A stretch of 41,174 nucleotides of DNA from positions 1-41,174 of the forward strand of contig JAMQPH010000304.1 in the NCBI GenBank assembly GCA_023717605.1, written 5' to 3'. Every line of letters begins with the position of its first letter. The stretch's first letter is position 1. Shown here one piece after another: positions 18,548 to 27,340 of the stretch. A program made the position numbers and the translations under genes. The notes under the pieces are model-generated. The model was not told the DNA's origin and ran no database searches. It worked only from the letters and a program-made list of their open reading frames with translations. Source of the stretch: Pyrinomonadaceae bacterium. Its GTDB lineage: Bacteria; Acidobacteriota; Blastocatellia; Pyrinomonadales; Pyrinomonadaceae.

Positions 18548-19174
18548 ATGTCAAAAGAAAACCGAGAACAGAATCACTACCTAACCCCAGCTCGTCTCGC
18601 TCTAACTGTCCTGGTGTTGTCACTCATCGCGGCCTTTGGGGTTTCAAGCTGCAACTCGACTGATGGGATTGGGAAGCCGGGGCCAGTCTCAATCAACCCT
18701 GCCAAGCCTGCGCCGGCCGCGCCAGGCTCGATGGCGTTGCCTTCTGTGGTACTTGATGCTGAGTTGCAATCTATAAACGGTCATCCCATCAAGATTTCGG
18801 ACTATGCAGGAAAGGTCCTGGTGGTGAACCTATGGGCCACCTGGTGCGGGCCGTGCCGCATGGAGATTCCGGAATTGGTAAAACTTCACAAAGAATACAG
18901 GGCGAAGGGCCTGCAAGTGGTTGGTCTTTCAACCGAGAACCCGGAAGCTTCGGCGGAAGGCGTACGGCGCTTTGCGCAGGAGTATAAGATGGACTACCCG
19001 GTGGGTTGGGTCAGTCAGGACGTGGCCATCGCTCTGATGCAGGGGCGGGACGCGATTCCTCAGAGCTTTGTAATTTCGCGCGACGGCAGAATTGTGAAAC
19101 GGTTCATAGGATTTAGTGCGGCTGGCACGCCTCAGCAGTTGAGAGATGCTATCGAACAAGCACTGAAGGGGTAG
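18548..19174 (+). CDS. TlpA-like thioredoxin-fold lipoprotein
   Basis: Membrane-anchored thiol-disulfide oxidoreductase of 208 residues. The N-terminus has a hydrophobic segment ending in GVSSC, a good lipobox (Cys35), then a Pro/Ala-rich linker. The thioredoxin domain carries the active site WCGPC (99-103), with the ResA/TlpA features WATWCGPCRMEIPEL and GLSTENPEAS, and a cis-Pro-containing segment DAIPQSFVISRDGRIV. The family reduces or oxidises periplasmic thiols, for example in cytochrome c maturation. No cytochrome assembly genes are nearby, so the target is unknown. Start chosen at the ATG at 18548. Confidence 0.9.
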   Translation: MSKENREQNHYLTPARLALTVLVLSLIAAFGVSSCNSTDGIGKPGPVSINPAKPAPAAPGSMALPSVVLDAELQSINGHPIKISDYAGKVLVVNLWATWCGPCRMEIPELVKLHKEYRAKGLQVVGLSTENPEASAEGVRRFAQEYKMDYPVGWVSQDVAIALMQGRDAIPQSFVISRDGRIVKRFIGFSAAGTPQQLRDAIEQALKG

Positions 19175-19420: not shown

Positions 19421-19628
19421 AATACCCTCTCTCGGTTCGTGACGTATCTTCGCGGTAAACTCAGTCTAGCCAAAGTCCTTGAGTGAGGCCAGCTTGAGAT
19501 GGTTAGTATCGATAACCGTTACAAAAAGATGACATTCCTATCTCGGCGTAGGCAGGCTGGTGGGGCTGGGGTCATTACTGACTCCGTCCACTTTATGTTT
19601 CTCGTTGGGTCGTTCGCTTGCGGCACAC

Positions 19629-19805
19629 TCTCATTCACACCGCGGCTTTAGCCCGGTGCTGGAGCTTTGTCCCTGACCACTCTTAACCGTTTTAACGGTT
19701 TTGGAATTGGCCGAGTATATGACGCGCTCCAAGCAAACCGTTGAAACGGTTGCAGGTGTCGGGGGAACAGGTTGGCACCGGGCTAAAGCCGCGGTGTGAA
19801 TGAGA
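19629..19805. repeat. 177-bp hairpin element with perfect 30-bp arms and two inner palindromes
   Basis: The arms 19629-19658 and 19776-19805 are perfect 30-base reverse complements (outer ends tctcattcacaccgcggc). Inside are two related 16-base palindromes, AACCGTTTTAACGGTT (19685-19700) and AACCGTTGAAACGGTT (19736-19751). It lies between the divergent CsbD-like gene and the metal island. No open reading frame is inside, so any movement would need an enzyme supplied elsewhere. The rest of the 19421-19885 gap shows nothing else convincing. Confidence 0.9.
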
Positions 19806-19885
19806 TAGTCACGAAAGGCAAATGCCTCACAACCAGTTTTGGCGGTTGGTCGACAAATTGCGAGCCGAGGGTTAGACTTCCCACA

Positions 19886-20407
19886 ATGATTCGCAGTCTT
19901 CCTTCAATAAGAATCGTGCGGTTTGTGCTGGCCCATACCATCAGCCTTTGGATAGCCGGCGCCGGATGCATGATCGGATGTGAAGGGATGGTCGCGACTG
20001 CGGCGACGGTTCCAAGCTCCAGCCAGGAAGAGCATTCAGGGCACCATTCGGGGCAGAAAGTTTCGTTGGTAGCCTCCGGTCACGCCTGCTCATCAAGTGG
20101 ATCCCATAGCTGTTGCGCAAAGAGCGCTGGTGAAACGAAATCAGCGGCTAAGCAAACCAGCGAGTCAGAAACCACGCTGGTTACGGTAAGTGGATCATCG
20201 TCTGGGATTATGAACTGCCCGCTGGCCGTGGGTAGGGCGGCGATTGCTGCGAAGATTCGTACTAATGAAGTTGCCTCCGCTACTGGACTCGGCCATTCGA
20301 TTCTGCCTGCTGAGAATGTTCTGGAGCGAACCTCTCCGCTTTCTACTCCAGCTCGATTACCCAATCGAGGGCACACCTACCTCCGCTGTTGTGTCTTCCT
20401 AATCTAA
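19886..20407 (+). CDS. Small Cys/His-rich exported protein, possible metal binder
   Basis: A 173-residue protein from the ATG at 19886; the frame is open farther upstream but would then begin inside the inverted-repeat arm. It has an N-terminal hydrophobic segment (about 8-33), then a His-rich stretch (HSGHHSG), a Cys-rich stretch (ACSSSGSHSCCAKS), a mostly low-complexity middle and a distinctive C-terminus ending YLRCCVFLI. No known domain is recognised. Its place at the head of the copper-type island and its soft-metal ligands suggest a metal-binding role. Ribosome-binding site weak. Confidence 0.55.
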   Translation: MIRSLPSIRIVRFVLAHTISLWIAGAGCMIGCEGMVATAATVPSSSQEEHSGHHSGQKVSLVASGHACSSSGSHSCCAKSAGETKSAAKQTSESETTLVTVSGSSSGIMNCPLAVGRAAIAAKIRTNEVASATGLGHSILPAENVLERTSPLSTPARLPNRGHTYLRCCVFLI

Positions 20408-20420
20408 AGATCTGCCTGTT

Positions 20421-20478
20421 TACAGGACAGATATGCCTGTCTGTTCAGTATTCATCGGTATCAGTGTGTTCGCTGATA
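20421..20478 (+). promoter_or_regulatory. Candidate operator region upstream of the Cys-rich gene
   Basis: Two overlapping dyads, ACAGG/CCTGT (20422-20426 with 20436-20440) and GACAG/CTGTC (20426-20430 with 20437-20441), sit 70-90 bases before the Cys-rich gene. A TATCAG/CTGATA dyad follows at 20459-20464 and 20473-20478. They are spaced like regulator binding sites and are reminiscent of metal-responsive operators. No regulator gene is nearby and the promoter boxes are not clear. Confidence 0.35.
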
Positions 20479-20512
20479 TCAGGCAATAATCTTTTTAGTT
20501 TAGGAGAACAAA

Positions 20513-20776
20513 ATGAAAAACATCAGAGGATTTGCCATGGGCCTCGCGCTCGGGCTAGCTGCCGCAATTTCAACTGTCGGCCTCGCTCAAAACTCAACAC
20601 CGAAAGACCAACAAACAAAATCGGAATCGTGTTGTGCAATGGAGTCGTGCTGTTGCAAGGGTGAATCGTGCTCGATGAAGCACGACCCGAAAAACCATCC
20701 ATCCAAGGATGGATGCTGCTGCTGCAGTAGTGACTCGTGCGACATGAAGATGAAAGACAAGCAGAAGCAAGGTTAG
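20513..20776 (+). CDS. Exported Cys-rich metallothionein-like protein
   Basis: An 87-residue protein with a typical signal peptide (MKNIRGFAMGLALGLAAAI, cleavage near GLAQ). The mature part of about 60 residues holds 11 cysteines in clusters (SCCAMESCCCKGESC and GCCCCSSDSC), with Met and His between. This composition fits a periplasmic metal-thiolate buffer, like bacterial metallothioneins but exported. GGAG lies 8 bases before the ATG, a strong translation signal. It may be co-transcribed with the outer-membrane protein downstream (144-base gap that contains an imperfect GC-rich hairpin). The sequence does not match any described metallothionein family that I can name. Confidence 0.75.
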   Translation: MKNIRGFAMGLALGLAAAISTVGLAQNSTPKDQQTKSESCCAMESCCCKGESCSMKHDPKNHPSKDGCCCCSSDSCDMKMKDKQKQG

Positions 20777-20920
20777 GTCTGCACGAGGCGCCCGCATCTC
20801 GATTCTTGGAGCCGACTTTCCCTGCTCCATCTCGGGGTGCGGGCCCCGGCATTGTCTTGCGGAAAAGGCACAGGCGCGATCGGTAAGACGCCGACACTTT
20901 TCTTTTAATCGTGGGCGGTT

Positions 20921-22822
20921 ATGAAAAGACAGTCTTCTGAATTCAAGGACGCGGTAATTTTATCTCTAGTCGTCTTGTTCTGCATGGTTTTTGCACCTCC
21001 TGTGTTCGCCCAACATGAAGGCCACAACATGCCGGGCATGAACAAGTCAAAAGCGAAACCAAAGGCAGCTCCAAAGCGGAAAGCAAAACGGAAAACTGCC
21101 GCCCGCGGATCGAAATCTGCCAAACCTACGGTAATTCCAGCTGCTGGGGGCCATTCGGAACATACGCCAAGGACGCCGATGCCCACCACGGCGCCGGCAA
21201 CTACCGCTTGGCCCCATACGCACACGCCTGGAATGTCAATGCCGGCTACTTCACCGGCAGCAAAACTACAAGCATCTCCGGCGCGCCACGACACACACAT
21301 AGCAACGCCCACTAGTTCACCGCAAACAAGCCAGCCGGCCTCGCCGGCGCAGCACGACATGAATATGCCTCAGCCGCGGACGACACCTTCGCCTTCGGCT
21401 TCTCCACACCAGATGGATATGCACCAGCCGACATCTCAACCTTCGCCTGATCCCGCAAGGCAAACTCACGATTCGATGGACCATTCGAAAACCGATGATG
21501 CAAAACCAACCGATCCGATCAAGGGAACGCACAGCGAAGGGGGTCACGCGATGAACGTGGGCCCGCTGATGGTGATGTCTGGCGATGACATGAGCATCCG
21601 AGTGGGCGCGAGCGAAACAAATCTAATGCCTATGGGTCAGATGGGTTCAGGAACGTCCTGGCAGCCGGCTTCAACTCGGACGAATATGCTGCACAAAACT
21701 TCAGGCGACTGGTTGTTGATGTTTCACTACAACGCCGTAGTCGGTGTTAACTCTCAGGGCGGACCGCGAGGGGTAACGAAGTTTGAATCAGCAAACTGGT
21801 TTATGCCTATGGCGTTTCGCAAAGTCGGCCGCGGCACGCTCGAGCTGCGCGGCATGTTCAGTTTGGAGCCCTTTACATTTCCGCCCGGCGGCTCGCCGTT
21901 TTTATTCCAAACTGGTGAGACTTATAAGGGCCTTCCAATCATTGATGCTCAGCACCCGCACGATCTCATTATGGAGCTTTCGGCCACTTACACGATCCCC
22001 CTCGGCGATCGGGCCACCTGGTTTAGTTACTTTGGCTACCCTGGCGAGCCGGCGTTAGGTCCAACTGCTTTCATGCACCGCGCGTCTGCATCGGAAAACC
22101 CATCGGCGGCTCTGTCCCACCACCTTCAAGATTCATCACACATCTCGTTCGGAGTTCTTACCACTGGCTTTACCTATCGCTGGTTCAAGCTCGAAGGTTC
22201 CGTCTTCAATGGTCGCGAGCCCGACGAAAACCGATACAACTTCGAAGCAAATCCCTGGAATTCGCGCTCGGCACGACTATCATTAGCACCTAACAGCAAT
22301 TGGTCAATGCAGGTAAGCCACGGCTTCCTGCGTAACCCGGAAGCGCTGGCACCGGGCGACGTGCGCCGCACCACAGCATCGATCAGTTACAACAAGGTGT
22401 TGAATAGAGGTAACTGGGCCACAAGTCTGATCTGGGGACGGAATCACGAGAGCCACGACGGTGAGATCTTCAATCTGAACGGTTACGTGGCGGAATCGAC
22501 CGTGAACTTTCTGGACAAGAACTACCTTTATACGCGGTTGGAGTTGGTGGACAAGAATCAACTCCTGCGGGAGGCAGATCGCCAACTTCTTGGGATCACA
22601 GAACACCATCCGTCCTTTCGCATCGGCGCGTACACCTTCGGGGCTACTCGTGATGTATGGACAAAGGAGAAGTTGTCAGTCGCCATAGGAGGCGATTTCA
22701 CGTTCTATTCGAAGCCGGCGACTCTGGATGCAATCTATGGCAGTAATCCGACGTCGTATCACTTCTTCCTTCGTTTTCGACCGGGGAAGACCAAGGTGGC
22801 CCAGATGCATGACACGCACTAG
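20921..22822 (+). CDS. Outer-membrane beta-barrel protein with His/Met-rich N-terminal region
   Basis: Secreted protein of 633 residues. A signal peptide (to about 30) is followed by about 180 residues extremely rich in His, Met, Pro, Ser and Thr (HEGHNMPGMN, HTHTPGMSMP, HDMNMPQP, HQMDMHQP), which should bind copper or similar ions. A basic Lys-rich block lies at about 42-65. The rest (about 240-633) shows alternating amphipathic strands ending in aromatic residues (GWLMLFHYNAV-like start; final strand SYHFFLRFRPG), a beta-barrel pattern. HPHDLIMELSATY recurs in related copper-island proteins. CopB-type outer-membrane copper proteins also join a His/Met-rich lead to a barrel, but I cannot confirm homology. 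The copper ATPase starts 15 bases after its stop, so they form an operon. Confidence 0.8.
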   Translation: MKRQSSEFKDAVILSLVVLFCMVFAPPVFAQHEGHNMPGMNKSKAKPKAAPKRKAKRKTAARGSKSAKPTVIPAAGGHSEHTPRTPMPTTAPATTAWPHTHTPGMSMPATSPAAKLQASPARHDTHIATPTSSPQTSQPASPAQHDMNMPQPRTTPSPSASPHQMDMHQPTSQPSPDPARQTHDSMDHSKTDDAKPTDPIKGTHSEGGHAMNVGPLMVMSGDDMSIRVGASETNLMPMGQMGSGTSWQPASTRTNMLHKTSGDWLLMFHYNAVVGVNSQGGPRGVTKFESANWFMPMAFRKVGRGTLELRGMFSLEPFTFPPGGSPFLFQTGETYKGLPIIDAQHPHDLIMELSATYTIPLGDRATWFSYFGYPGEPALGPTAFMHRASASENPSAALSHHLQDSSHISFGVLTTGFTYRWFKLEGSVFNGREPDENRYNFEANPWNSRSARLSLAPNSNWSMQVSHGFLRNPEALAPGDVRRTTASISYNKVLNRGNWATSLIWGRNHESHDGEIFNLNGYVAESTVNFLDKNYLYTRLELVDKNQLLREADRQLLGITEHHPSFRIGAYTFGATRDVWTKEKLSVAIGGDFTFYSKPATLDAIYGSNPTSYHFFLRFRPGKTKVAQMHDTH

Positions 22823-22837
22823 TTCTTTTTGTAGAAT

Positions 22838-25174
22838 ATGGATCATTCCATCAGCTTAGAGAAATCCCAACTCGAAGGGACATCCGTGCCTGTCGTGGAC
22901 CCGGTGTGCGGGATGACTGTCAAACCGGAGTCGGCGGCAGGTCCGTTCGTCTACGATAATGAAAAGTATTATTTCTGCAGCAAGCACTGTCTGCAAAAAT
23001 ACCGCGAAGACCCCGAGCGTTTCACAAAAACAGCTGCTGGATCAATGAATGCAAAACAGAAGGTTGAATACACCTGTCCGATGCATCCCCAGATCGTTCG
23101 TGACGCGCCGGGTAGTTGCCCGATCTGCGGGATGGCACTGGAGCCACGCACGATTTCATTAGACGAGGAAGAGAATCACGAACTCCTGGATATGCGGCGC
23201 CGGTTCCGGGTCAGTGTGATTCTGACGATTCCGGTTTTTTTGATGGGGATGAGCGAAATGATTCCGGGGTCGCCACTCCAACAACTGATTTCCATGCGCG
23301 CGCTCTCATGGATCCAACTAGTCCTGGCATCACCCGTCGTACTCTGGGGAAGTTGGCCGTTCTTTGTCCGTGGTTGGCAGTCCGTCCTGAACCGCAGCTT
23401 GAACATGTTCACGTTGATCGGACTAGGTGTGGCCGTCGCTTATCTATATAGCGTGATTGCCACAATCTATCCTGACGTCTTTCCACATTCGTTTCGACAT
23501 GGAGGCAGCGTTCCTGTCTACTTTGAAGCCGCGACCGTAATCACGACGCTCGTATTGCTGGGCCAGGTGTTAGAACTCAAAGCACGTAGTCAAACCAGCT
23601 CGGCAATCAAGGCGCTTCTTGGCCTTGCACCCAAGATCGCACGACGTGTCGCTGCTGACAAAACAGAACAGGATGTACCTCTGGATCAGGTACAACCCGG
23701 CGATCTTCTGCGGGTGCGTCCCGGCGAGAAGATCCCAGTGGATGGAGTTGTAGTTGAAGGCGGCAGTGCGGTTGATGAATCAATGGTAACTGGCGAGTCG
23801 ATTCCTGTAGAGAAACGACCGGGAGAGCAGGTTATAAGCGGCACGGTTAGCGGAACGGGAACGCTGATCATGAGAGCCGAACGCGTTGGCGCCGAGACGT
23901 TGCTGTCACAGATCGTGCGAATGGTTGCGGATGCGCAGCGCAGCCGCGCTCCAGTTCAGAAGTTGGCAGATCGTGTTTCTGCTTATTTCGTGCCCGCGGT
24001 GATTCTGTTCGCAATCGTCACCTTCGTTGTATGGGCCAGTTTCGGACCCGAGCCGCGCATGGCCTACGGTCTTATCAATTCGGTCGCAGTTCTGATCATC
24101 GCCTGTCCTTGTGCTTTGGGTCTGGCGACGCCGATGTCGATTATGGTCGCCGCAGGGAAAGGCGCGCAGATTGGCGTGCTGTTCAAGAATGCCGAAGCGA
24201 TCGAGATCCTTCGTGAAATCGATACGCTGTTGGTTGATAAAACCGGAACACTAACTGAAGGCAAACCAAAGTTAGTGGCGGTTGTAACGGTAGAGGGATG
24301 GACTGAGGGCGATCTGATTCGGCTGGCAGCGAACCTCGAGCGTGGCAGCGAACATCCGTTGGCGGAGGCCATTGTCGCCGGCGCGCAGGAGCGGAGTATT
24401 GAGTTGGGCCATACGGAGTCTTTTGAATCAATCACAGGCAAGGGAGTTACTGGCCGCGTTGATGGGTACGAGATCAGTTTGGGAAATAGAAGTTTACTAG
24501 ACGACCTAAGCATTGATGCGGCAGAACTCGCTACCAAGGCCGAACAGTTGCGCATAGACGGCCAGACTGTAATGTTTGTGGCGATAGATGGAAAAGTGGT
24601 CGGCTTGCTGGGGGTTGCCGACCCAATCAAAGAGACCACTGCTGAGGCCATCAAGCAGCTTCACGAACAAGGAATTTGCATCGTTATGCTTAGCGGCGAT
24701 AGTCGCACTACCGCCGAGGCTGTGGCCAGTAAGCTTGGCATCGACGAAGTGGTTGCTGAGATCCTGCCAAATCAGAAGGCTGAAATCGTTAAGCGCTATC
24801 AGGCCGAGGGCCGGAGAGTGGCAATGGCGGGCGATGGTATCAACGATGCGCCGGCATTGGCCCAGGCGCACGTCGGCATAGCAATGGGAACAGGTACTGA
24901 CGTAGCCATGCAAAGTGCAAGCATAACACTGGTCAAAGGAGACTTGCTTGGAATCGTTCGGGCGATCCGACTGAGCCGCGCGACAATGAAGAACATCAAA
25001 GAAAACCTTTTCTTTGCCTTTGTATACAACGCGCTAGGCGTACCTCTAGCTGCTGGTGTGTTGTATCCGTTCTTCGGTATCCTGCTAAACCCGATGATTG
25101 CCGCGGCCGCGATGAGCTTTAGTTCAGTATCTGTTATTAGTAATGCGTTGCGCCTTCGCAACCTGAGATTATAG
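22838..25174 (+). CDS. copA: Copper-transporting P1B-type ATPase, CopA-like, with YHS and heavy-metal-binding domains
   Basis: Inner-membrane pump of 778 residues that exports monovalent soft metal using ATP. N-terminal order: YHS/TRASH-type domain (VDPVCGM; Cys24, 47, 51), then a heavy-metal-binding domain (YTCPMHPQI ... CPICGM; Cys80, 94, 97), in place of the usual HMA ferredoxin-like domain. The core has the CPC membrane motif (423-425), phosphorylated Asp467 in DKTGTLT, HP (506-507) and GDGINDAPA (665-673). Tyr730-Asn731 and Met759 with Ser762-Ser763 in the last helices are the P1B-1 (Cu+/Ag+) signature. This motif set is the best evidence that the island handles copper. The start at 22838 leaves a 15-base gap from the barrel protein. 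No chaperone or regulator gene is adjacent. Confidence 0.95.
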
Positions 25175-25178
25175 ACGG

Positions 25179-25230
25179 GTCACTCCGTGGGCAACCTAAG
25201 TCGAGGTAGCACGTGCGCCCATGGAGTGAC
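25179..25230. terminator. Inverted repeat after copA, possible terminator or attenuator
   Basis: Arms gtcactccgtgggc (25179-25192) and gcccatggagtgac (25217-25230) pair over 14 bases with one mismatch; the loop is 24 bases. It lies five bases after the copA stop. There is no U-tract, so termination is uncertain; it may instead reduce expression of the downstream genes or be another repeat element. Confidence 0.45.
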
Positions 25231-25257
25231 GACAGTTCAAACTGAAGATTTCGATCA

Positions 25258-25758
25258 ATGAGAACCAAACTCTTACTATTAGTCCTTGTCCTCCTGGCAC
25301 TGGGCGTCGGGAGTCTGGTGGTGATGAGGCCCGGAGGTGGCGCTACGGAGATTGCCCACGAACATGGTGGGCCAGCAGTGGCCGCGCACGATACGACCCC
25401 ACAAGCCAACAACCACCTGGCCAAGCCGCGAATCCCGGCGTATCAATTAGCCACTGAAGTCGGAAACCTTCCTCCAACGTTGCCAGCGTCAGAATTCATC
25501 GGCAAGGCACGGGAAGCATATGAGGCAGCGAAGAAGATTCCCGAGACGCTGGCCCAGCTGCCCTGCTATTGCGAGTGTGATAAGGCTTTCGGACACAAGA
25601 GCCTGCACACCTGTTTCGTAGACGACCATGCCGCGCACTGTGCAGTATGCGTTGACGAAGCCTTGCTGGCTTACAAGCTCCAAAAAACTGAAAAGCTGAC
25701 GCCAGAGCAGGTGCGCGAAAAGATCATTGAGAAGTATTCAGTCGAGCATCAGCACTAA
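25258..25758 (+). CDS. PCYCGC-motif-type membrane-anchored protein
   Basis: A 166-residue protein with one N-terminal hydrophobic helix (about 4-23) and a His-containing linker. Its C-terminal domain contains LPCYCECDKAFGHKSLHTCF ... HCAVCVDEA (Cys103, 105, 107, 119, 128, 131), the pattern of the PCYCGC family. That family is of unknown biochemical function but is found with metal-handling and redox genes. The cysteine spacing suits metal or disulfide chemistry outside the cytoplasm. It follows copA and precedes the DUF4198-like gene by 13 bases. The ATG at 25258 is the natural start; ribosome-binding site weak. Confidence 0.82.
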   Translation: MRTKLLLLVLVLLALGVGSLVVMRPGGGATEIAHEHGGPAVAAHDTTPQANNHLAKPRIPAYQLATEVGNLPPTLPASEFIGKAREAYEAAKKIPETLAQLPCYCECDKAFGHKSLHTCFVDDHAAHCAVCVDEALLAYKLQKTEKLTPEQVREKIIEKYSVEHQH

Positions 25759-25771
25759 TGAGGTTTCAGAA

Positions 25772-26599
25772 ATGAAGCGAAAGACTGTGATGGCGTTGGC
25801 CATCGCCCTGCTCGTAACAGCAACCGGCAGTGCCCATGACCTGTTCATGAAGCTCGACTCATATTTTTTGGCGGCAAATACGAGAGCCAGCGTGCGACTC
25901 CTAAATGGAACCTTCCAAAAGAGCGATGGGCTGGTCGCACGTGATCGTTTCAGAGATATCAGCGTATATGCTCCGGAGCTAAGCGGGCCTATCAGCCAGT
26001 CAGTGACGTGGCGGGACGAGGGAAAAACGACGGTGATGGACGTCCAGACCGGTGGACCGGGAACATACCTGGCGGGAGTTTCAACTAAACCCAGGGAGAT
26101 TGATTTGAAGGCCGCCGAGTTCAACGATTACCTCCAACACGACGGTATCCCTGACACTCTTGCTGGCCGAAAGACAAACAACGAATTGAACAAAGATGTC
26201 CGCGAGCGTTATTCGAAACATGTGCGGGCTGTTTTTCAAGTGGGCGACAAGCTTTCCGACGATTATAAGAGACAACTCAATTATCCTGCGGAGGTCATCC
26301 CGCAGCAGAATCCGTACGCCTTGAAAGTGGGAGATACGATTAGTGTGCTCTGCATGGTGGAAGGCCAACCAGTGCCGCATCAATTTGTGATGGCTGGATG
26401 GGAGTCGAGCGACGGGAAATTGCATCTGCTTGACGCGCGCACAAATGCGTCGGGCCTCGCAACCTTTAGGCTGGCCGGTGCGGGGAAGTGGTACGTGAAA
26501 TTCATTCACATGACACCGCTCGCTCAACCTGATCTCAATTACGAATCGAAGTGGGCCAGCTTAACGTTCGAAATCAGGGCCAGGAGAAGAGCCTCATGA
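25772..26599 (+). CDS. DUF4198-like periplasmic protein
   Basis: A 275-residue exported protein. Start chosen at the ATG at 25772, because a signal peptide follows directly (MKRKTVMALAIALLVTATGSAH); the longer frame from 25727 lacks one. HDLFMKLDSYFL right after the signal, together with the later beta-rich segments (GDTISVLCMVEGQPVPHQFVMAGW, TNASGLATFRLAGAGKWYVKFIHM), matches DUF4198/NikM-like periplasmic proteins linked to nickel, cobalt or copper handling. The mature N-terminal His-Asp could form a metal site. It is 13 bases after the PCYC-type gene and clearly in the same operon. Confidence 0.82.
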   Translation: MKRKTVMALAIALLVTATGSAHDLFMKLDSYFLAANTRASVRLLNGTFQKSDGLVARDRFRDISVYAPELSGPISQSVTWRDEGKTTVMDVQTGGPGTYLAGVSTKPREIDLKAAEFNDYLQHDGIPDTLAGRKTNNELNKDVRERYSKHVRAVFQVGDKLSDDYKRQLNYPAEVIPQQNPYALKVGDTISVLCMVEGQPVPHQFVMAGWESSDGKLHLLDARTNASGLATFRLAGAGKWYVKFIHMTPLAQPDLNYESKWASLTFEIRARRRAS

Positions 26600-26626
26600 T
26601 ACCAATGACTAAAGAGAGGGCTAGTT

Positions 26627-27340
26627 ATGAACTTTTCGATTAGAGGAACCATGATCGGGGCGGCCAGTGTGGCTATTTTAGTGGCAATATCTGCATTTTC
26701 GGTGCCCGCGCAGAAAAATTCGAGGACCGAAGACGCCGCGCGGCATGCAAGCACGGCGGCGAAAACATTTACCGAGATCATGAACGTCAGAGACAAAGCG
26801 ATTCCCAAGGAGTTATTGGATAAGGCGGAGGCGATTGCGGTCTTTCCGGGAGTGATCAAAGCTGCATTCATTGTGGGTGGCCGCGGGGGTCAGGGAGTAA
26901 TCAGCAGACGCGTAAAAGGAGGCTGGAGCGCTCCGGCGTTTTTCAACCTGAGTGGCGGAAGCTTTGGGGCGCAGATAGGTGCGCAGAAAAATGATTACGT
27001 GTTTCTGATTATGAATGAAGAAGGCATTAAGGGTCTGCTCGAGGATAAGTTTGAAATGGGCGGCGAAGCCGGCGTAGTTGCTGGTCCGGTTGGTCGTGAA
27101 GTTGCGGCGTCCACAAACACCACGCTGGATGCCGGTATCCTTTCTTACTCACGAAGCAAAGGTGCGTTCATCGGCGCAGCATTAAAAGGTGCGGTGATAA
27201 GCCCGGACAATGATCTTAACCTGGCTGTCTACGGAATGAATGCGACTCAGGTCTTGACGGGAGACACCATGCCACTAACCAAGATGCCACCCAGTGTGCG
27301 TATCTTCCCGCGCACGCTTGCCCGCTACTCGGTCCGCTAA
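26627..27340 (+). CDS. SYLF (Ysc84-type) lipid-binding domain protein, exported
   Basis: A 237-residue protein with a signal peptide (hydrophobic core about 9-25, cleavage near VPAQ). The rest is a SYLF/Ysc84 domain, recognisable from KAEAIAVFPGVIKAAFIVGGRGGQGV, GGSFGAQIGAQKNDYVFLIMNEEG and GPVGREVAASTN ... ILSYSRSKGAFIGAALKG. In eukaryotes the domain binds phosphoinositides; the bacterial role is unknown. GAGAGGG lies upstream of the ATG. It is 27 bases after the DUF4198-like gene, so it is probably the last gene of the metal operon, although nothing in it suggests metal binding. Confidence 0.9.
   Translation: MNFSIRGTMIGAASVAILVAISAFSVPAQKNSRTEDAARHASTAAKTFTEIMNVRDKAIPKELLDKAEAIAVFPGVIKAAFIVGGRGGQGVISRRVKGGWSAPAFFNLSGGSFGAQIGAQKNDYVFLIMNEEGIKGLLEDKFEMGGEAGVVAGPVGREVAASTNTTLDAGILSYSRSKGAFIGAALKGAVISPDNDLNLAVYGMNATQVLTGDTMPLTKMPPSVRIFPRTLARYSVR

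Follow-up and report, generated by a model that had tools for sequence, protein, structure and literature searches.

Which part of a copper-type gene cluster decides when the cluster is expressed, if no protein regulator is encoded in it? This question is raised by an island of seven genes in a Pyrinomonadaceae bacterium (Acidobacteriota; assembly GCA_023717605.1). It lies in a stretch of 41,174 nt, here called the window, which is the entire contig C435 (JAMQPH010000304.1) of a genome of 7.38 Mb in 909 contigs (completeness 99.6, contamination 5.3). An earlier note on this DNA had described seven same-strand genes for two exported Cys-rich proteins (here g1 and g2), an outer-membrane barrel, a Cu+-type P1B ATPase, a PCYCGC-type protein, a DUF4198-like protein and a SYLF protein, and our check of the open reading frames (ORFs) found all seven in place, with Pfam and NCBIfam matches that agree with the domains described (Table 1). 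The same note saw no regulator. As far as protein regulators in the island are concerned this is correct, and a CsoR domain was not found in the source genome, but g1 together with the RNA 3' of it is probably a regulator. Judging from sequence, we consider it fairly probable that the island is a defence operon for copper, or for another soft metal, led by g1 as a nascent-peptide sensor.

By its sequence features the first gene, g1, appears to be a CutF/CruR-type leader ORF and not a structural copper binder. It carries a signal peptide (recognized by eye) and Cys/His motifs, and neither g1 nor g2 nor the barrel belongs to a Pfam or NCBIfam family above cut-off. Across 11 aligned relatives the mean frequency of the top residue was 0.75 in the last 20 columns and 0.33 elsewhere (gapped columns included); the signal peptide, the Cys/His motifs and the C-terminus are kept, while the remainder of the protein drifts. 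When only the last eight codons of 24 leaders were counted, synonymous codon-pair differences exceeded amino-acid-changing ones (911 versus 409), indicating that the peptide, and not the DNA, is conserved at the leader end. Among 119 genomes of the order, 26, which represent 11 of 29 genera, gave a match at E<=0.01 to a g1 profile built from 11 of the matching genomes; in 23 the E-value was below 1e-9, and the other three matches are weak. Since a Cys-rich exported ORF resembling g2 follows the g1-type leader in all 23 readable loci (21 by tblastn, two by eye), while the barrel lies within 1.5 kb downstream in eight, the core unit appears to be the leader plus the Cys-rich protein. Among the features of CutF-like proteins, g1 shows the signal peptide, the Cys/His motif, a short same-strand gap and structure in this gap, but with 173 aa it lacks the combination of PP in the last 15 residues and a length below 150 aa. 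The end conservation of g1 and the RNA anchored at its stop codon are the behavior of a leader ORF, and the role of copper-binding effector that g1 had been given is therefore not supported.

The spacer between g1 and g2 folds with a z of -6.2, and values of -3.7, -2.4, -6.7, -1.5, -7.7 and -5.2 were obtained for six relatives. In an alignment of nine sequences 89.7% of the cells were paired, compared with 36-51% when the structure was slid, and double-side changes were found in six pairs and ten cells; none of 500 shuffles reached this cell count or the covariation score. The third base of the stop codon takes part in one of the covarying pairs (AU in four sequences, GU in three, GC in two). 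A covariance model, from whose alignment L035, L043 and L046 were omitted and with which 73 loci were searched, matched 11 of the 119 genomes once each, in two genera. Nine of these are the training set, and the two new matches, G112 (85.5 bits) and G116 (31.8 bits, E 0.012, weak and with a much shorter spacer), both stand after a g1-like ORF. Of the omitted loci, L035 (25.8 bits) and L046 (21.5 bits) were matched weakly in the correct place and L043 was missed. Outside the range of this model, in 24 leader spacers of unlike sequence (L237/L241, at a contig end, L239 and L242 omitted), the first 13 nt pair with the region 5' of g2, and the mean duplex energy is -8.2 kcal/mol for cognate partners, compared with -6.6 kcal/mol when partners were swapped (permutation p 1.5e-4). 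The 18 loci left after exclusion of near relatives gave p 5e-5, the floor of the test. A closing helix, P1, in which the nine bases counted from the stop codon onward pair with a partner 16-28 nt 5' of the g2 start, is present in 13 of the 24 minimum-energy folds, and bases of the stop codon are used in ten of these.

Two leader peptides described previously offer the closest mechanisms for comparison. CutF of Rhodobacter capsulatus has a proline-rich end and precedes a multicopper oxidase gene (PMC9973294); CutF-like proteins are not copper-specific throughout, and the main text of that paper does not name Acidobacteriota (PMC9973294). CutF and g1 are alike in being exported Cys-motif leaders with a stalling-like C-terminal end and RNA structure before the next gene. 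They differ in that g1 has no PP near its end, exceeds the filter of <150 aa used in PMC9973294, and precedes a Cys-rich protein, a barrel and an ATPase instead of a multicopper oxidase. CruR of Bordetella pertussis, a DUF2946 protein, works via Rho on a TonB-dependent transporter (PMC9426467), and its arrest was shown in vitro (PMC12992588). The leaders studied here share with CruR a Cys motif some 50-60 residues from the C-terminus and an outer-membrane protein gene downstream, whereas g1 differs from it in having no DUF2946 match and a stop-anchored helix in place of Rho. Upstream ORFs with RAPP/RGPP ends precede metal genes in many phyla, Acidobacteriota being among the genomes used (PMC12992588); the leaders with such ends before relatives of our barrel probably fall under this kind; the window kind does not. 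Since copper acts in opposite senses on the two systems, prolonging the stalling-like state of CutF (PMC9973294) and relieving the arrest of CruR (PMC9426467), no sign is predicted for the switch at g1. A literature search, mostly of open-access papers, returned no title or abstract opening naming a leader of the g1 type or the barrel family.

By its sequence the barrel is an undescribed family. It had no Pfam family at E<=1 and a single NCBIfam row at 11.8 bits (cut-off 450), and thus matched neither CopB (PF05275) nor any named outer-membrane family in these databases; a PDB sequence search gave no useful match. An AlphaFold2 model of residues 201-633, computed from 40 sequences, has a pLDDT of 86.7, a pTM of 0.86 and some 16-17 strands, and its best Foldseek matches in the PDB are 16-stranded general porins such as OmpF, Omp32 and OmpK36 (probability 1.00, E 2.6e-10 and weaker), which points to a porin-type beta-barrel fold. 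The overlap is moderate, with TM scores of 0.45-0.54 by query and 0.48-0.68 by target and root-mean-square deviations of 5-9 A among the 50 matches listed. The barrel is set apart from the general porins, to which no sequence relation was found, by its His/Met-rich tail and by six His residues (345, 347, 386, 400, 401 and 407 in the window protein) that are invariant in 40 barrels; Met 295, Met 312, Asp 342 and Asp 404 are also invariant in these.

The family is widespread. At E<=0.001, 51 of the 100 genomes searched in the order have a match, which in 44 of them reaches E<=1e-50. Further matches lie on three plasmids (two from Sphingobium, one from Pontibacter) and in at least 505 of 591 candidate stretches of the GTDB collection. 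The record titles of the 80 stretches that were kept, many of them metagenome assemblies, belong to eight phyla (Acidobacteriota, Bacteroidota, Pseudomonadota, Verrucomicrobiota, Omnitrophota, Sericytochromatia, Gemmatimonadota and, with Chthonomonas, Armatimonadota). The barrel of G086:C14 (L021/L050) was listed in the first search and not recovered by tblastn of the stretch. Among the neighbors of barrel relatives are genes for CusA/B, cupredoxin, MerR, PCYCGC, a DUF326 four-helix protein, HMA and DUF305. In a tblastn survey of 116 loci (seven duplicates and L050 dropped), a copper-type marker, that is a Cu-ATPase, CusA/B, DUF326 four-helix protein, HMA, cupredoxin, DUF305 or PCYCGC gene, lay within 5.5 kb of the barrel in 18 of 23 close-barrel loci and in 32 of the 76 that belong to neither the close nor the distant group.

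Small exported Cys/His ORFs also precede the barrel relatives, with three main kinds of C-terminal end: RAPP/RGPP in the distant-barrel group of the order, HAPP..RHxLxxVFLI and similar, and the window kind RLPNRGHTYLRCCVFLI, in which a Cys-rich ORF stands between leader and barrel. In sphingomonads the leaders end in PAPPPPxIA and a Cys-rich ORF likewise precedes the barrel. Many Bacteroidota leaders near barrel relatives end in PP..NCVFRI, PP..CVFRI or similar, and five of six that were tested matched HYC_CC_PP (NF047658). Leaders of this profile, often ending in PP..CVFRI, resemble the CCVFLI end of the window, although neither g1 nor three other Acidobacteriota leaders matched the profile; the family name was not found in the literature searched. 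A strict rule for the C-terminus, set after the ends had been inspected, asked for R[AG]PP close to the end or for PP plus a hydrophobic xLI-type end. It was passed by 40 of 95 candidate upstream ORFs and by 12 of 1087 controls (Fisher p 2.3e-37), at least six of these 12 resembling leaders of other genes. In the HAPP..VFLI class the stretch around the stop codon ranks among the best partners of the Shine-Dalgarno (SD) sequence of the barrel gene (10 loci; mean rank 0.077, Kolmogorov-Smirnov (KS) p 2.8e-8; composition-controlled shuffle, Fisher p 5.6e-6), being within the best 7.5% in nine loci and at 45% in L045. Masking it raised the predicted SD accessibility from a mean of 0.32 to 0.45, with an increase in seven of ten loci (p 0.024). 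The 16 loci of the RAPP/RGPP class gave no such stop-codon signal (mean rank 0.85), which is consistent with another mode, e.g. the Rho-dependent one of CruR. L051 was omitted from these two tests (its start was not determined), and downstream starts were set by hand in L052, L069 and L073 and by a score of SD plus signal elsewhere. These classes lead us to a more tentative proposal, which we regard as possible but slightly more doubtful than probable. The gene g1 would represent a further class of metal-sensing leaders, with the end LPxRGxTYLRCCVFLI (not RAPP) and an RNA switch whose closing helix starts in the stop codon of the leader; sister lineages place RAPP leaders, or leaders with an anti-SD at the stop codon, before the His-bearing copper porin, so that three nascent-chain switches would govern one outer-membrane protein.

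As a separate observation, on the two Sphingobium plasmids (L002:11034-13395, L004:11186-13215) a leader, a small Cys-rich ORF and the barrel follow one another as in the window, with MerR and DUF305 genes adjacent. In addition, and in favor of the leader reading, the source genome itself holds a second leader-like ORF near the end of contig C688 (L213:11700-12092); it precedes a CusA/CzcA-type pump gene, ends in HSPPESSNPAYIRNLALLI and matches no family.

Several results weigh against a nascent-peptide switch at g1 that serves a copper barrel. Neither g1 nor ten other leaders matched DUF2946 (PF11162). RAPP is missing from the window leader type, whose C-terminus is LPNRGHTYLRCCVFLI in g1, and no PP occurs among the last 30 residues of the window copy; membership of g1 in DUF2946/CruR was accordingly rejected. 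For the RNA, 8 of 500 shuffles reached the number of double-change pairs and 235 that of further pair types, and 11 of the 24 minimum-energy folds show no P1 or a different one. In an earlier shuffle test no more than 5 loci out of 12 had p<=0.05 when taken singly (Fisher 4.7e-4, rank KS 0.046). All p-values given here are optimistic as the sequences and loci are related. In silico, the g2 SD of the window type became no more accessible when the 5' strand was masked (12 loci, p 0.77), and SD masking is not supported as the mechanism of this type. Because the pairing tests are positive while SD accessibility was not raised and 11 folds lack the helix, these predictions support P1 itself but not an effect of it. 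Outside the order, a leader candidate with PP or such an end stands beside 16 of 72 barrels, compared with 20 of 22 in the close and 16 of 17 in the distant group (5 of the 116 loci, with <900 nt upstream, were dropped), so the link between leader and barrel is strong in the order and patchy elsewhere. Finally, in the sister group with the distant barrel this gene precedes YbaB and RecR genes and a copper marker was found in only 1 of 17 loci, and the barrel alone is therefore no proof of copper.

The case for copper comes from the ATPase and from the neighbors of the barrel relatives. The ATPase consists of YHS, HMBD, E1-E2 and HAD domains (Pfam), scores 606.6 bits against TIGR01511 (cut-off 397) and holds the motifs CPC, YN and MSFSS (by eye). 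The motifs CPC, YN and MxxSS are the marks of Cu+ pumps, and the assignment to the P1B Cu ATPases made in the earlier note is borne out by family score and motifs. In domains and family scores it resembles a CopA-type Cu+ ATPase of the YHS/HMBD variety, and nothing unusual was seen. It alone exceeds the TIGR01511 cut-off in the source genome, where a second match on contig C248 remains below it (352 bits). The PCYCGC protein belongs to the PCYCGC/CYCXC family (PF13798; NF041379, 108 bits, cut-off 90) and had no useful match in a PDB sequence search. The DUF4198 protein reaches 83.5 bits in its family (cut-off 34). His as mature N-terminus is known from His-brace copper proteins, and the DUF4198 protein would, by eye, likewise start with His after predicted signal cleavage. 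Taken together, the Cu-ATPase and the neighbors of the barrel relatives support, at the level of sequence, the view that the island is copper-type with undescribed parts. This much of the original proposal stands, in contrast to the effector role of g1 and the membership of SYLF. CusABC and multicopper oxidases had been reported as lacking; two CzcA/CusA-type pumps above cut-off and one multicopper-oxidase domain (Cu-oxidase_3) are found on other contigs, and the island is half a system in the sense that resistance-nodulation-division pumps and oxidase domain lie elsewhere in the genome.

An order unique to this genome had been named as evidence that would speak against the island; the order recurs, whole or in part, in the genus. 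In G096, over two contigs, TlpA, g1, g2 and barrel are followed by ATPase, PCYCGC, DUF4198, SYLF and lexA, with a gap of 1.9 kb between DUF4198 and SYLF. G116 has TlpA, g1, g2 and PCYCGC, whereas G060 and G112 keep g1, g2, PCYCGC, DUF4198, SYLF and lexA, with barrel and ATPase missing at the locus except for short remnants, possibly by an assembly fault (two relatives without these genes: L188:6800-9400, L214:8200-10700). Such losses would be expected if barrel and ATPase alone made up the copper module and PCYCGC and DUF4198 were passengers, and a DUF4198 gene lies near the barrel in just 2 of 43 loci, the window counted. However, g1, g2, PCYCGC and DUF4198 stay together in both species that lack the other two genes, and PCYCGC is near the barrel in 8 of the 43 loci, the window again counted, over six genera, so that this division of the island seems unlikely, if the least unlikely of the alternatives considered here. 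SYLF (108 bits, cut-off 25) is another matter. It lies within 1.5 kb upstream of lexA in 17 of 30 lexA loci, and since five of these pairs (L164, L165, L171, L175, L181) occur in genomes with the barrel on a different contig or with no barrel found, SYLF-lexA exists without the island. In several species of the genus SYLF comes right after the Cu-ATPase or DUF4198 gene; even so, judging from these loci, it is probably a neighbor of the system, and we rejected it as a specific member.

Two further explanations concern g1 and its spacer, and we rate both, equally, as rather improbable. The protein g1 might be an ordinary periplasmic metal-binding protein or chaperone, with its C-terminus a docking site or degradation tag and the RNA a stability or processing structure. 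It is exported and Cys/His-rich as g2 is, hydrophobic C-termini may serve as protease tags, and the g2 SD was not exposed by masking, but a middle that drifts between two conserved ends, a helix anchored at the stop codon with cognate-specific pairing, and true RAPP/RGPP leaders before the same barrel family argue for a leader. Alternatively, the spacer might be an intrinsic attenuator, a stem plus U-run that partly splits g1 from the rest with or without control by the ribosome. P1 does terminate in AUCUUUUU in the window and close relatives, and our terminator scan, limited to loops of 3-8, is blind to a long-loop element of this kind; yet the U-run lies inside the helix and is short or missing in several other genera in which P1 is kept. 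That the metal is silver, zinc or mercury instead of copper appears still less probable, given that the Cu family scores higher for the ATPase than the Cd family TIGR01512, whose cut-off it also exceeds (403.3 versus 313.5 bits), and that cupredoxin, DUF326, HMA and CusA-type genes adjoin the barrel relatives, even if silver systems include YHS+HMBD ATPases and not all CutF-like proteins are copper-specific.

Under the preferred reading of a metal defence operon led by g1, g1 would be translated and exported, and its Cys/His motifs would sample the metal while the conserved C-terminus is still inside the ribosome. A pause at its last codons may then decide whether P1 forms beside the ribosome-binding site of g2, and the formation of P1, whose geometry is seen in the predicted folds, would set the expression of g2 and the downstream genes. 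Of the products, g2 would serve as a periplasmic metallothionein-like buffer and the barrel as a porin-like outer-membrane pore with a His/Met tail and conserved His residues, while the ATPase would move Cu+ out of the cytoplasm and the PCYCGC and DUF4198 proteins may be periplasmic binding or relay proteins.

Table 1. Positions in the window of the genes and RNA parts discussed in the text.
Feature	Position	Strand	Remarks
g1, exported Cys/His ORF, proposed metal-sensing leader (CutF/CruR-like)	19886..20407	+	173 aa, C-terminus LPNRGHTYLRCCVFLI
Conserved RNA element, g1 stop codon to g2 start codon	20405..20515	+	folding, covariation and pairing tests
P1 closing helix, 5' strand	20406..20417	+	starts at second base of g1 stop codon
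P1 closing helix, 3' strand	20481..20494	+	ends about 19 nt 5' of g2 start codon
P3 hairpin	20457..20480	+	shows compensatory changes
AGGAGA, likely g2 Shine-Dalgarno	20502..20507	+	by eye
g2, exported Cys-rich protein, metallothionein-like	20513..20776	+	87 aa, 11 Cys
Outer-membrane barrel of an unnamed family, predicted porin-like, N-terminal tail rich in His/Met	20921..22822	+	six invariant His
Cu-type P1B ATPase, YHS + HMBD domains	22838..25174	+	Pfam/NCBIfam
PCYCGC/CYCXC-family exported protein	25258..25758	+	Pfam/NCBIfam
DUF4198 protein, predicted mature N-terminus His (HDLF)	25769..26599	+	Pfam; N-terminus by eye
SYLF/Ysc84 protein, neighbor paired with lexA, probably outside the system	26627..27340	+	Pfam, locus survey

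The most likely start of g1 is the ATG at 19886, the open frame itself beginning at 19796. Barrel and ATPase are 15 nt apart, and 10 nt separate PCYCGC from the ATG of DUF4198. Upstream, a TlpA gene (18548-19174) is kept in the genus and is separated from g1 by a minus-strand ORF; it was left out of the proposed system. Just 5' of g1, an inverted repeat (19617-19817; arms of 43 nt, 88% complementary, spaced by 115 nt) looks like a small mobile or REP-type element. An Rfam scan of the window gave one tRNA and nothing else.

Nascent-peptide control by metals has been worked out in few cases, CutF and CruR, and the locus presented here adds a conserved pair of leader and RNA with defined helices ahead of a barrel family without Pfam or NCBIfam match. 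If our reading is correct, a copper-type operon would join the cases of stop-codon-anchored RNA control, and there would be a candidate for a dedicated outer-membrane path for copper. Moreover, small Cys-rich ORFs in metal operons may then be regulators and not metal sponges.

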